From a virus, in the IMG/VR virus record IMGVR_UViG_3300042518_001245, positions 1 through 36,436 of that record: DNA of 36,436 nt; one strand, given 5' to 3'. The notes beneath the pieces are model-generated. The model ran no database searches, was not told the DNA's origin, and saw nothing but the letters and a program-made list of their open reading frames with translations. The translations under genes and the position numbers were made by a program. Below, in pieces: positions 25,489 through 36,436 of this stretch (position 1 is the stretch's first letter; each line of letters opens with the position of its first letter).

Positions 25489-27072
25489 ATGACTGAATGT
25501 AGCCCCGAGTCCATTACAGGAGCCTTGACCGCCACGCTTGAAGCCGTGGGTGTTGATACCATGGAAGCCAAGCTAAGCATGAGCAAGGCACAAAAGCAGG
25601 GCTACACCGCCAAAATTGATGATCTGTTTGATGATGCCTTCCACGACGGAAGCCGACTAAGAGAAGGCGACGACAAGATTATTGACTGGATCGCAGGAAG
25701 CCGTGACAACTTCGACAAGCCAGCCACCAGTGCAGGGCGAGTGATTAACGGCACCAAGTCCTTATTTTACCAGTTTAGAAACGTAAGCCAGTCACTAGGG
25801 GAAGACGTGGTGCAACCCTTTCAAAAGATTATGGAGAAGATAAACGGCGAGTACAAAGACAATCCCGACGGACGCAAGATTTACACCGCCTTGATAAAAG
25901 ACAAAATCAAAGAGCTTGAAAACACACGCCCCGAATTGACAGATTCGCCAGCATGGAGCAGATACAGCAAATGGCTAAAGGACGGCGGAAGCCTGTATCA
26001 CACAGACCACCAAAACGTCTTGGCTAAAGGCGTGAATAACGTGGTGTCGAACATCATTACAGGTAACTTCAACGTGTTCGGCGGAAACTTAATCGAGATG
26101 ATGAAGGTTCCCGTTTTGTACGGAGGCGACGCACTAAAGACGATAAGCCACGCCACCAACTTCACCAAGCGAGACGACCTTGTGAAAGCAGGCGTGTTTC
26201 AAGAAACCGACATCCCCTTCAAAGAAAACCCAGCAGACCCCAAGGTATGGAACGCCCTAAGAAAAGCAAACTATAAAGGCTTACAAACTATACAAGACTT
26301 GACGTTTCTATTTGATGCCCCGATGAAGACGTGGGCGTATGAAGCAGGCAAAGCCAAAGGCGGACATGAGGAAGGGATGCGAGCCGTGCAACGCATCACC
26401 TTTGCCAACCGCCTTGCAGATCCTACTTTTATGCAGATTGACCCAGTGGGACGACTTGGCACACAATTAACGAACTACGGCATGGGAACGGTGCGTTTAT
26501 ACGGTAACTTGTGGCATGAAGTTGCCAGCTTTAAGCAAGACCCCGAACGGGCCAAGCAAGCCGTCGCAGGCTTAATCCTATACCACACATGGCTAGGCTT
26601 GAGTGCAGGCACTTTAAACGCCTTACAAGGGAAGGACTTCAACGAGGCGTTTCAAATAGGAGCCTCACAAGTCCCCCTTTTGTACGGTATCGCCGAAGCC
26701 ATAAGCCCCGAGCTACAGGAAAAGTCCGAACGCAACAAAGGGGCAGGAACTCAACTCACACAGGCGTCAGGTGTAGGACGTTTGTTTGTAGGGCTTGATA
26801 TTGCCAAGAAAACCGTAGACACAACAGGGAGATCACTCAAGAAAGCACACGAAGCCGTGATGAATGACGACCCAGAGACCGCCGTGCGTGAAGCGACACG
26901 AGCTTTAATCAAGTCATCAACGTTTATACCCAGCGTGACAGGTACTAAAGTAGGGCAAGGCGTAAGCGATTGGCTCCTTGATTGGAACGAGGGCGACTTT
27001 GAAGCCGACGAAGCAGGCAAGCAACTCTTAGGACGCACGACGCCGTTTTACAAGGATGAAGTCCAGCCCTAG
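25489..27072 (+). CDS. Internal virion protein, 527 aa
   Basis: The last gene of the plus-strand virion block. The protein is long and mainly helical. At residues 175-210 the segment VNNVVSNIITGNFNVFGGNLIEMMKVPVLYG (in pieces: VVSNIITGNFNVFGGNL then EMMKVPVLYG) is a hydrophobic stretch that could interact with a membrane. A second amphipathic region (TQLTNYGMGTVRLYGNLWHEV, then QAVAGLILYHTWLGLSAGTL) lies at about 330-390. The C-terminus (residues 440-527) is charged. Position after the other ejection genes suggests that it is a third large ejection protein. Its stop overlaps the stop of the convergent terminase large subunit by a shared CTAG. No family name is certain. Confidence 0.65.
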   Translation: MTECSPESITGALTATLEAVGVDTMEAKLSMSKAQKQGYTAKIDDLFDDAFHDGSRLREGDDKIIDWIAGSRDNFDKPATSAGRVINGTKSLFYQFRNVSQSLGEDVVQPFQKIMEKINGEYKDNPDGRKIYTALIKDKIKELENTRPELTDSPAWSRYSKWLKDGGSLYHTDHQNVLAKGVNNVVSNIITGNFNVFGGNLIEMMKVPVLYGGDALKTISHATNFTKRDDLVKAGVFQETDIPFKENPADPKVWNALRKANYKGLQTIQDLTFLFDAPMKTWAYEAGKAKGGHEEGMRAVQRITFANRLADPTFMQIDPVGRLGTQLTNYGMGTVRLYGNLWHEVASFKQDPERAKQAVAGLILYHTWLGLSAGTLNALQGKDFNEAFQIGASQVPLLYGIAEAISPELQEKSERNKGAGTQLTQASGVGRLFVGLDIAKKTVDTTGRSLKKAHEAVMNDDPETAVREATRALIKSSTFIPSVTGTKVGQGVSDWLLDWNEGDFEADEAGKQLLGRTTPFYKDEVQP

Positions 27073-28520
27073 ATGCTGAAATACAGCTCCTTTTGTTCAA
27101 AGGCTTTCTTTTTGATGACATCAATCTTCAAGGGTTCGTAATAGTCCACCATACAGCTTAAGGCGTCAAAGGCGTGATCCGAAAACCACTTTTGACTAGG
27201 GTCTCTTGCTATTTGAGCAGGCGAGGGCAAGTCGTAGTCGTTGCACCCTTCTTTAAAGCGTAGATTCTGAATACATTGAATCGTTCGCTTACAGCGTGGG
27301 TCGAGATACACAAACATTTCACCGTTCGCATTGCAGACCTTGGCTTTGAAGGACTCAATACGGCGACTAATGGCAGGGTTCCCCTTGTTTGTGGCGACTC
27401 TCACATTGTCGTGTCCGTATTCACGACGCAATAGGTTGAGCATCTTGGTATAGAGCGAATTGCGTTCATCCTTTGCCTTGTCTTCCACCGTAACGCCGAC
27501 GTGATTAAAGCCAGCCGACGCATCCCCATTGATGATGATGCCATGCTTGATTTTATCCTTGGGGAACTTCTCAATCAAGGCACGGCACATTTCGTCCACG
27601 TCTGTTTTTTCAAGGCACAGCTCATCAAAGGCGTGAAATTCGCCATTCACACGTTGCACAAAGACCCAACAGCAGGGGTCAAAGTTAAAATCGCAGGTGA
27701 CATGAAGGGGCAACTCCTCCCGATGCTTCAATTCCCTGATGTTGTTTTCGGTAAAGTTATTCACAACCAGCCCCCTTGTTAGGTTACAGTCCTCGCCAAG
27801 CACGAAGACCCTGAACATGTCTTCATCCATGGATTGACGCAGTGTTTCAATGAACGAGTACCCAATGTGTGGGTTTTCAATGGTAGACGCACGACGCTTT
27901 CTAAAGCAAACTTGCACCTTTTCGCCGTTGCGTGGATCGGTAACGGATGTAATCTTAAACGGCGTGTCAAACAGTTCAGCCATCCACCCACGCCGAGCTT
28001 CAGGGTTTGATGTAATAAAGATACGATGCACAGGGAGATTCCCTTGCCTTACACGTCCTATGACTTCAAGCAGGTGTCCCCTTGTCTTGAGTAGAGAACC
28101 TTCATCAACGTGTGCGAACGAGGCGTTGATTGAGCGAATCGATTGCGGATTATCCAATGAACGAAACAACAGTATCGCCCCATTCCAGCACTTGAACGTC
28201 ATCCTCATGTTGGAACGATTAAACGTGTAGTCGATGCCTTCCACAAGCCCGAAGTCATTTAAAAGCTTTTGATATGTGGGTATTGTGGCATCTCTTAGCA
28301 TGGAATAGGAAGGGGCACAGACAAGCCCAGTGACGGCATCCACCTTGTCGCACAATTCTTGGCAAAGCAGAAGACAGCCAAAAGCACCGGGCAAAGTTTT
28401 GCCACTACCATAGCCACCTTGCAAAAAGGCAACATCATGCCCTCCAGTGAAGCCGACAGGCAGTTCAAGCATCCACTTTTGAGCAGGCAACAGGGTAAAC
28501 TCAAAGACATCCTCATTCAT
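27069..28520 (-). CDS. terL: Terminase large subunit (TerL)
   Basis: A 483-residue packaging motor ATPase and nuclease. Walker A is GGYGSGKT (residues 35-42), Walker B is FAHVDEG with Asp139 and Glu140, and a coupling-type SNPE motif (FITSNPEARRG) follows. The C-terminal nuclease has acidic residues in CDFNFDP, NGDASAG and HAFDALSC, fitting the RNase H-like nuclease fold. The start is ATG 28520, in the sequence GAATGAGG overlapping the TerS stop by 8 bases with GGGGAGG upstream; the frame could be extended to 28541 but without a better site. The gene is on the opposite strand from portal and capsid. It converges with the virion block with a 4-base overlap of stops. Confidence 0.9.
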   Translation of the reverse strand: MNEDVFEFTLLPAQKWMLELPVGFTGGHDVAFLQGGYGSGKTLPGAFGCLLLCQELCDKVDAVTGLVCAPSYSMLRDATIPTYQKLLNDFGLVEGIDYTFNRSNMRMTFKCWNGAILLFRSLDNPQSIRSINASFAHVDEGSLLKTRGHLLEVIGRVRQGNLPVHRIFITSNPEARRGWMAELFDTPFKITSVTDPRNGEKVQVCFRKRRASTIENPHIGYSFIETLRQSMDEDMFRVFVLGEDCNLTRGLVVNNFTENNIRELKHREELPLHVTCDFNFDPCCWVFVQRVNGEFHAFDELCLEKTDVDEMCRALIEKFPKDKIKHGIIINGDASAGFNHVGVTVEDKAKDERNSLYTKMLNLLRREYGHDNVRVATNKGNPAISRRIESFKAKVCNANGEMFVYLDPRCKRTIQCIQNLRFKEGCNDYDLPSPAQIARDPSQKWFSDHAFDALSCMVDYYEPLKIDVIKKKAFEQKELYFSI

Positions 28521-28974
28521 CAAGCGTCGCCTCCCCTTCAAATTCGAGAGGAACCGACGCCACGTTTGATATGTTCAAATTATTGCAAATGACTTTCCTT
28601 GAGAGTGTTTCTTCAACGCCTATTTCAAGTTTATCTTTCCAACCGCACAGGTTTTTCATCTTGAAGATCCACACAATGGTGTTAAAGTTCTCAATCGCCC
28701 CATTCATGGCGTCGTTTGCAAGGTCTTCTAGGTAGTATTGAACGCAGGCGTCGCCTATCGCCTTGGCTTCTTTAAACTCCTCGTGCATCTTCATCCAGTT
28801 GTAAATTGTTTGCTTGCTTACACGGATTTTACCAGCAAATGCCTCTACAGAAAGCCCTTGTGCCATGTGGTTGATGAGCATCTCGCAGTATTTGACATCA
28901 TAACTGGTTGCCCTTGATTGTTTAGAGCCGAGAGGATGATGCACAATCTCTGTTTCATACTTTTGAGGCTCCAT
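28513..28974 (-). CDS. terS: Terminase small subunit (TerS)
   Basis: The 153-residue protein begins with a basic stretch, followed by a helix-turn-helix at about residues 25-65 (YCEMLINHMAQGLSVEAFAGKIRVSKQTIYNWMKMHEEF in pieces: LSVEAFAGKIRVSKQTIYNW), typical of small terminase subunits that recognise the packaging site. A helical oligomerisation region follows (KAIGDACVQYYLEDLANDAM) and a polar C-terminus. It starts with GAAGGTATTAA upstream of ATG 28974 and overlaps TerL. It is co-transcribed from the promoter at 29897-29925 together with the upstream pseudo-glycosyltransferase. Confidence 0.85.
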   Translation of the reverse strand: MEPQKYETEIVHHPLGSKQSRATSYDVKYCEMLINHMAQGLSVEAFAGKIRVSKQTIYNWMKMHEEFKEAKAIGDACVQYYLEDLANDAMNGAIENFNTIVWIFKMKNLCGWKDKLEIGVEETLSRKVICNNLNISNVASVPLEFEGEATLDE

Positions 28975-31328: not shown

Positions 31329-32345
31329 TCAAAAGCAACTAGGCAAGGCTCTCACAAATCGCACTGCATCATGTGCATCGGCTTCAACGTAAAGCTGGGT
31401 CGTCTTTAGTGACGTATGCCCAAGCAGTACAGAAACCATCGTCAACGGTACATTGTGTTGTACCCATTGCGTCGCACAAGTTCGTCTTAAGTCATGAAAG
31501 TTAAGAGGAAACGGCACTAGCTTTCTTAACCGTCTTAGGGCAATTCTAGCCCCTTGATAGGTGAGATTGTTAAACAGTGTTTGACCTGTGGCGTGGAACT
31601 TCAGAGTCCACTCCAAAACAATCGCTTTCATTGATTCCGACAACACCGTGATGCGTGGCTTGTTACCCTTCCCTAATACCGATATTGTGCCTTGTTCAAA
31701 GTTTAAATGTTCAAGGCGAATCGCCAGTGCTTCGCTTATACGCAGACCACTGGTGAGCAGAAGACTTAGAAGCAGGCGCATCCTCTCTTTGTAAAAGGGG
31801 AGGGTGCAATGCTCATCTAAAGCTTTAAGCAGTTGTGAAACATCGTCTTGCTTGAGCTTATTTCGCTTAGCAGGGGTGAACCGTTTCGGACGCAAGCTTT
31901 CAATGCCACCTAGTGAAACGTTAAACCCTTGCGCATTAAGCCACTTGGCAAAGCAGATGAAGGCTTTGCGCATGTTGTCTTTCAAGGAATAATGACAGCC
32001 GTCGGCTCCGATATTGTCGAGAGCTTGCTTCAGCGTGTCTACGGTGAACGACTTCAACGACGGCACGACCTCGCTATGCTTCCAAAAAGAACGGATGAAC
32101 CCTTTGTAGCCCCGAATGGTTTTGGCACTGTACGGCTTAGGGTATCCCTTGCCAGTGCTTAAATCATCAAGCCATTGGTGCATCAAAGCATCAACTTCGT
32201 GTTCAGCTGGAAGATCAAGCATCCAAACATCTTTATCTTTGTAGCCTTTCACCTTGTGGGCCTTGTGCTTTCCTTGATAAATTTGTTTCTTCAAGGCAGG
32301 CATCGAGACCCCAAGAACAGCGGAAGCTTCTTTTAACGTAAGCAT
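31329..32345 (-). CDS. int: Tyrosine recombinase integrase with N-terminal HTH
   Basis: The 338-residue product catalyses site-specific insertion and excision. The catalytic residues of the tyrosine recombinase family are visible: Arg202 in TSGLRISEAL, Lys226 in LGKGNKPR, His284 and Arg287 in HDLRRT, His310 in LLGHTS and Tyr319 in TTQLYV. Residues about 60-165 form a core-binding SAM-like domain. Unusually, residues 1-40 (LTLKEASAVLGVSMPALKKQIYQGKHKAHKV) resemble an excisionase-like MerR/HTH_17 domain fused at the N-terminus. Start ATG 32345 follows AAAGGAG; an in-frame extension to 32447 lacks support. It lies beside the attP at 32474, with direct repeats between that could be arm sites. Confidence 0.92.
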   Translation of the reverse strand: MLTLKEASAVLGVSMPALKKQIYQGKHKAHKVKGYKDKDVWMLDLPAEHEVDALMHQWLDDLSTGKGYPKPYSAKTIRGYKGFIRSFWKHSEVVPSLKSFTVDTLKQALDNIGADGCHYSLKDNMRKAFICFAKWLNAQGFNVSLGGIESLRPKRFTPAKRNKLKQDDVSQLLKALDEHCTLPFYKERMRLLLSLLLTSGLRISEALAIRLEHLNFEQGTISVLGKGNKPRITVLSESMKAIVLEWTLKFHATGQTLFNNLTYQGARIALRRLRKLVPFPLNFHDLRRTCATQWVQHNVPLTMVSVLLGHTSLKTTQLYVEADAHDAVRFVRALPSCF

Positions 32346-32393
32346 GGTTTGCTCCTTTGTTTGAATAAACGAACAAAGGATCAAGCGATTGTT

Positions 32394-32442
32394 AATCGTT
32401 ACAAGAATCGTTACTTTTTGGTAAAGTTTCGGTTGTAAAGTT
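32394..32442. repeat. Direct repeats upstream of integrase (candidate arm-type sites)
   Basis: AATCGTTAC occurs at 32394-32402 and 32406-32414, start to start 12 bases. GTAAAGTT occurs at 32421-32428 and 32435-32442, start to start 14 bases. These spacings are near one helical turn and the repeats lie between int and the attP core, as expected for integrase or integration host factor sites. The GTAAAG motif recurs in the attP core. Confidence 0.55.
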
Positions 32443-32473
32443 GTCAAAGAACCTGTAGATCTAGTAAGGGATA

Positions 32474-32535
32474 TGGGCGCTCACGGGCTCGAACCGTGGA
32501 CCACCTGCGTGTAAAGCAGAGACACAATCTTTACA
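32474..32535 (-). other. attP: attP with the 3' part of tRNA-Val(UAC)
   Basis: On the minus strand, 32520-32474 reads as tRNA positions 27-73: anticodon stem TCTGC, loop TTTACAC with anticodon TAC (valine), stem GCAGG, variable TGGTC, T-arm CACGG-TTCGAGC-CCGTG, acceptor strand AGCGCCC and discriminator A, with no CCA. The 5' half is absent, so this is a phage attachment core that restores the host tRNA on integration. The likely crossover region is flanked by TGTAAAG (32510-32516) and its inverted copy CTTTACA (32529-32535), 12 bases apart, in the anticodon loop. Confidence 0.88.
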
Positions 32536-32586
32536 TTAAAGGCTTGAGCGGTGCGAAAGTATCGCTTGACATCACAAAACAAACAC

Positions 32587-32706
32587 AGGGGCTACGAAGC
32601 CCCTTTTCTCTTCGCCTTAGTGCTTGCGAGCCTTAAGGCGAGTAGAAGACTACTCGACAGGCATTTACATTGACCGCAGGGGTATTGAGAACCCCTGCTT
32701 TTCTTT
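32587..32706 (+). other. Hairpin cluster with two intrinsic terminators; possible small RNA
   Basis: First terminator: AGGGGCT-ACGA-AGCCCCT then TTTCTC (32587-32607). Then CGCCTTA (32613-32619) pairs with TAAGGCG (32634-32640) with GCT/AGC inside its loop, followed by GAGTAG-AAGA-CTACTC (32640-32655). Second terminator: GCAGGGGT-7 bases-ACCCCTGC then TTTTCTTT (32676-32706). No plus-strand gene lies upstream. A perfect -35 TTGACA occurs at about 32570 but without a convincing -10. It may insulate the lysogenic chromosome junction or encode a short RNA between the two terminators. Confidence 0.6.
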
Positions 32707-32816
32707 GAAAGGAAACTTACATCATGCCCTAACAATCAAGGCATCAAAGGAACCGCCCTTATGCCGACCAACTACCCTATGAAGCAAATTTTAGCAGTGG
32801 TGCTTGCTATGACAAA

Positions 32817-36012: not shown

Positions 36013-36436
36013 ATAGCCCTATTATCAAAGATTTACCTATTGAAGAGTACCATTCCCCCGATTGCAAGTATACGAGTTCGACGTTTCTACGGACGCTTCA
36101 AACCAAAAGCCCGGCTCATGCACTGGCTGAAAAGAAGGCAGAAAAAAAAACTAAAAAGTGCTTTGAAATAGGGACTTTAATTCACACACTTATTTTAGAA
36201 CCTGAAACGTTTGAATCGCGATATGGCGTATTTGACGGCGATTTTCGGACAAAAGAAGCCAAAGAGATGAAAGCCGATTTTGATAGTCGAAATATAACCG
36301 TCATTAAAACAGGTGATTATGAAAACGCCCTAGCGTGTGCGGAAGCCATGAAAAACTTTCATTTTTACGACATGATTTTTGGCCATGGGTACCCAGAAGT
36401 TTCTTTCTTTGCTGAAATTGACGGGGTGAAACTAAA
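36009..36436 (+). CDS. RecE-like exonuclease, 5' part (continues at 1-494)
   Basis: ATG 36009 overlaps the upstream stop (ATGA). This part gives residues 1-142, with the N-terminal helical pattern KYTSSTFLRTLQTKSPAHAL, then CFEIGTLIHTLILEPE (the G-T-L-I-H-T-L-I-L motif near residues 55-65 is typical of RecE C-terminal nuclease domains), and DGDFRTKEAKEMKADF. The frame continues through the circular junction to the stop at 494, giving 264 residues. The 127-base overlap at the end of the record is counted twice if both ends are read. Confidence 0.88.
   Translation, partial: MNSPIIKDLPIEEYHSPDCKYTSSTFLRTLQTKSPAHALAEKKAEKKTKKCFEIGTLIHTLILEPETFESRYGVFDGDFRTKEAKEMKADFDSRNITVIKTGDYENALACAEAMKNFHFYDMIFGHGYPEVSFFAEIDGVKL
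36310..36436. repeat. Terminal direct repeat, right copy (circular overlap)
   Basis: Identical to 1-127. It falls within the RecE-like gene and confirms that the two ends join. Confidence 0.95.

Follow-up and report, generated by a model that had tools for sequence, protein, structure and literature searches.

The 3' half of a tRNA-Val(UAC) gene as the probable attachment site of a Vampirovibrionales phage, and a possible change of integrase target between sister phages

The tRNA half and the adjoining integrase gene

The window, that is, the whole stretch of 36,436 nt analysed here (IMG/VR record IMGVR_UViG_3300042518_001245), is a complete phage genome, circularly closed or terminally redundant, with a direct terminal repeat of 127 bp (positions 1-127, pairing with 36310-36436). 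Its minus strand carries, from 32520 to 32474, positions 27-73 of tRNA-Val(UAC), comprising the anticodon stem-loop (TCTGC TTTACAC GCAGG, with the anticodon UAC at 32513-32511), the variable loop (TGGTC), the T arm (CACGG TTCGAGC CCGTG), the 3' acceptor strand (AGCGCCC), and the discriminator A at base 73. The perfect T arm, acceptor strand, and anticodon loop noticed in an earlier sequence-only reading are confirmed, as is the lack of a 5' half. ARAGORN detected no complete tRNA in the window, and the Rfam tRNA model gives the segment 21.9 bits, below the gathering score of 29, both as expected since only half of the gene is present. RNA folding of the segment is no better than that of shuffled sequences (z -0.42), again as expected for a half tRNA. 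Matches to the Rfam families HPnc0260 and mir-3524 at the att region were discarded, being far under their gathering scores.

A gene for a tyrosine integrase of 338 aa (31329-32345, minus strand), recognized from its domains and homology, begins 129 nt downstream of the tRNA end on the same strand. Its start, ATG 32345, was taken from homology with a sister phage (L002, see below), the start given by the ORF finder being TTG 32447. The protein consists of an excisionase-like HTH (residues 1-45), a core-binding region (46-150), and a catalytic domain (151-338) with the catalytic residues R202, H284, R287, H310, and Y319, and it matches Phage_integrase (PF00589, E 4.7e-26) from residue 164. Comparison of the integrase with phage and plasmid records returned remote tyrosine recombinases only, and the AlphaFold model (pLDDT 48) is too poor to be used for a search.

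The N-terminus of the integrase shows a weak similarity to HTH_17/excisionase (Pfam E 0.005 for the window, 7e-5 for a relative from genome G009) and sits where phage integrases have their arm-binding domain, which is its probable role here as well. An excisionase/MerR-like HTH is also fused to the N-terminus of the G009 prophage integrase. Judging from sequence, the fused HTH might combine the arm-binding and directionality roles. Two copies of GTAACG, at 32409-32414 and 32397-32402 (minus strand, 12-nt period), are likely candidates for the arm-type sites; the pair lies at equal distances from the tRNA end in the window and in L002.

The molecule that bears the integrase carries the tRNA without its 5' half, so the site is attP and not attL. 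The terminal repeat, which implies a closed or terminally redundant genome, further indicates that this attP is unoccupied. The att region matched nothing among phage records, and the exact 45-nt tRNA pattern is absent among the viral contigs searched. Among plasmids, the att region matched only short unannotated stretches on a few replicons (85% for the best-placed one), which are presumably tRNA genes.

Host tRNA genes, related prophages, and position of the crossover

A 39-nt probe spanning the anticodon to tRNA position 72 was compared with a collection of genomes from 84,980 species. An exact match occurred in a single genome, a Vampirovibrionales MAG (G001), within a tRNA-Val(UAC) gene on its contig CANGYO010000024.1. 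The phage and G001 genes are identical without interruption over positions 27-73 (47/47), up to the 3' end of the tRNA, and diverge on both sides. When up to two mismatches are allowed, 2 of the 382 genomes of the class are found, G001 and G009, the latter belonging to the same order and having one mismatch inside the probe. These matches bear out most of what the sequence-only reading had proposed: an attP of a phage integrating into tRNA-Val(UAC), a junction on the 5' border of the anticodon stem, and the use of the tRNA piece as a handle for finding the host. The gene ending in the 47-base segment exists, but not with the acceptor strand GGGCGCT that had been predicted, the G001 gene having GGGCGTT with a U6.G67 wobble.

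The attP of L002, a 3' half of tRNA-Arg(ACG), also matches G001 exactly, in this case from position 28. Two independent att sites thus indicate one host, and these exact matches tie an uncultured phage lineage to Vampirovibrionales. We consider it highly probable that the site serves as attP for a temperate tailed phage whose integrase targets the Vampirovibrionales tRNA-Val(UAC) gene. As such, the site is ordinary, a well-supported case of a kind already known. The tRNA-Val(UAC) site is empty in G001, and no lysogen of the window phage at this gene was found in the collections searched, in which few genomes of the order are represented.

Integrated relatives with attL and attR, for which the sequence-only reading had suggested looking, do occur, albeit in tRNA-Arg(CCG) and tRNA-Ala(UGC) and not in tRNA-Val. 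They were found by a whole-genome profile search, a peptide-pattern scan of genome contigs with an alignment of two integrases having given none, and they are distant (27-33% integrase identity), with attL carrying a restored tRNA and attR a 3' tRNA fragment. In G014, an element of 38.4 kb lies between a tRNA-Ala(UGC) gene, corresponding to attL (C1, 746212-746287), and an attR starting at tRNA position 29 (C1, 784600-784680), and it encodes a related integrase and a homologue of the 153-aa protein of the window. The attR and attL of G014 show two T-stem differences that compensate each other, and this phage appears to have swapped the host T stem for another functional version.

On contig C187 of G009, a complete tRNA-Arg(CCG) is directly followed by a prophage with 33% integrase and 32% TerL identity to the window. 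Its attR is on contig C188, where phage genes (SSB-like, AAA_24, Cro/CI-type repressor) are followed by 44 bp shared with the tRNA from position 31 and then by host flagellar genes (fliF, rod gene); the attL and attR contigs are unjoined in the assembly. The tRNA-Arg(CCG) site of G001 is empty, with a left flank 90.5% identical to that of G009; the right flank of the G009 attR has no match downstream of the G001 tRNA. A different layout is observed in G019, where an integrase element is flanked by two near-complete copies of tRNA-Val(CAC) (C230, 5363 and 23288) at a distance of 17.9 kb, a whole-tRNA duplication unlike the anticodon-loop type. We did not count this element as crossover evidence, because the tRNA copies have 70 nt in common and the crossover is not localised.

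Phages do carry tRNA genes, the window has no complete one, and the segment could in principle be a degraded or truncated phage tRNA gene that has lost its 5' half. This origin is scarcely credible, given that the 3' half is perfect, that it is the same as in the host gene, and that it immediately precedes the integrase gene. It would also not account for L002, where a different tRNA supplies the 3' half at this position and the junction falls at the same point, nor for the same layout in the prophage relatives.

An attachment site being the preferred reading, the crossover had initially been placed in a symmetric core formed by TGTAAAG (32535-32529 as read on the minus strand) and CTTTACA (32516-32510), two 7-nt arms that form a perfect inverted repeat around a spacer of 12 nt. 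If the two arms were the core-type sites, strand exchange would take place inside the spacer. Although the repeat is exact, such a repeat arises in 5.7% of sequences made by shuffling the bases of the 101-nt region, and 9% of the 101-nt windows of this contig contain one, a chance level of 6-9%. Furthermore, the anticodon loop coincides with CTTTACA and hence not with the spacer, and TGTAAAG is phage-specific and lies outside attB. The host tRNA, which reads AGTTGGTAGAGCG there, lacks the left arm and most of the spacer, and an identical core would thus be unavailable in attB. The L002 attP has neither arm, and the limits of identity in the related prophages, at positions 29 and 31, are a further argument against this core, which we regard as very improbable.

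The identity block of the window begins at the 5' anticodon stem and includes the anticodon loop. The left limits of att identity are positions 27 (window), 28 (L002), 29 (G014), and 31 (G009). Identity with the host tRNA bounds only the left limit of the crossover; on these sequences, strand exchange must occur within the anticodon loop or 3' of it. The earlier proposal of a crossover in the anticodon loop is supported, as one in the loop or beside it, by the attL and attR of the related prophages and not by the symmetric core. The probable strand-exchange core is CTGC-TTTACAC-GCAG (32505-32519, minus strand), as suggested by the sequence, the related prophages, and the model in PMC8371274, with the 7-bp loop TTTACAC (32515-32509) as overlap between the anticodon-stem arms. 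In the textbook arrangement, overlap and core are formed by a 7-bp loop and the stem arms on either side of it (PMC8371274), and by analogy the exact cut sites would lie at the edges of the loop.

In the mechanism that we propose, the integrase would recombine attP and the tRNA-Val(UAC) gene of the host by strand exchange across the anticodon loop, the two stem arms providing the core-type sites. The 5' half of the host gene and the 3' half from the phage, with its 47 identical bases, would then make up an intact tRNA-Val beside the integrase gene, and the displaced 3' half of the host gene would end up at the far border of the prophage.

Sister phages and the integrase target

The sister phage L002 (IMGVR_UViG_3300034272_002360) is collinear with the window, with 86-92% DNA identity over many stretches, including most structural genes, and a TerL that is 99% identical. 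The TerL of the L002 phage and L049 (L048; L049:2867-3289) has an in-frame insert of about 143 aa in Walker A (GGYG, then C...VNHN, then SGKT), which looks like a mini-intein and is missing from the TerL of the window (27069-28541) and of a third sister phage, L050.

The two genomes differ from 31866 to 32736 (at most 70% identity per 60-column block), a segment that comprises attP, the leader of the integrase gene, and the DNA-binding half of the integrase. At 31865 and below, in the catalytic half, identity jumps to 80-98%; this position corresponds to about codon 160 of the integrase, the boundary of the catalytic domain. Protein identity is 73% in the HTH, 50% in the core-binding region, and 88% in the catalytic domain. 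Fourfold sites are identical at 9 of 33 (27%) for residues 1-150 and at 63 of 83 (76%) for residues 151-338, a contrast with a Fisher p of 1.8e-6 when sites are taken as independent. The saturation of synonymous divergence in one half only argues for recombination within the integrase gene and not merely for faster protein evolution.

We tend to favour retargeting through a recombination event at the point where the DNA-binding part of the integrase meets the catalytic part. From the comparison of these two integrase-bearing genomes, this event would have swapped the DNA-binding half, the leader, and attP between Val-UAC and Arg-ACG types. The target would have changed through parts that differ together in L002, with the catalytic half held in common. 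Conservation in tyrosine recombinases is generally lower in the N-terminal than in the catalytic part (PMC8371274), and since only two genomes have both parts for comparison, ordinary divergence, with the DNA-binding half evolving faster under selection and no recombination inside the gene, also deserves consideration. Nevertheless, selection on specificity should spare synonymous positions, whose identity falls from 76% to 27% at the boundary, and the non-coding leader and attP segment has diverged as well, which makes this explanation rather unlikely.

Retargeting by recombination, the reading that we prefer, can be set beside the phage L050 (IMGVR_UViG_3300035680_000102), which is 88% identical over 11.9 kb. 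Because its attP and integrase gene are missing at the syntenic place, the integration module behaves as a cassette. A small coiled-coil-like ORF (1243-1679) occupies that place in L050.

The interest of this locus lies in the proposed natural chimeric switch and the link to the host, the att site itself being ordinary. The sister pair offers a natural test case for a change of integrase target, with a common catalytic half, a different DNA-binding half, and a different tRNA. How such changes evolve is described as still unclear (PMC8371274), and our literature search for natural intragenic integrase recombination retargeting a phage gave nothing decisive.

Comparison with known systems

The window shares several features with phages and islands whose tyrosine integrases target tRNA genes: an attP that contains the tRNA from its anticodon stem to its 3' end, an integrase gene adjoining attP, the expected restoration of the tRNA on integration, and a 7-bp anticodon loop with flanking stems that fits the core. 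The general model of crossover in the anticodon loop of tRNA genes is given in PMC8371274, which cites Campbell 2003 and Williams 2002. The window differs from this model by its target, the tRNA-Val(UAC) of Vampirovibrionales, and by the excisionase-like HTH at the N-terminus of its integrase. The PhiMa05-like prophages of Vampirovibrio (PMC13157829) belong to the same non-photosynthetic cyanobacterial class; they are set apart by their description as a jumbo-phage lineage with no recognizable integrase (PMC13157829).

Target diversification among related integrases is already known from lambda and HK022 and from the archaeal pT26-2 family (PMC8371274). In the pT26-2 family of Thermococcales and Methanococcales, related integrases are likewise spread over several tRNA genes (Badel et al., cited in PMC8371274). 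The Thermococcales members are suicidal plasmid integrases with att inside the integrase gene, whereas the phage of the window is temperate, with att outside the gene.

Lambda and HK022 resemble our sister pair in that their integrases are closely related but differ in core specificity, and work with laboratory chimeras showed how specificity can change (Yagil, Dorgai and Weisberg, cited in PMC8371274). In the window and L002, by comparison, the chimera-like junction is a natural one, located at the boundary between the core-binding and catalytic domains, with attP changing along with the target from one tRNA gene to another.
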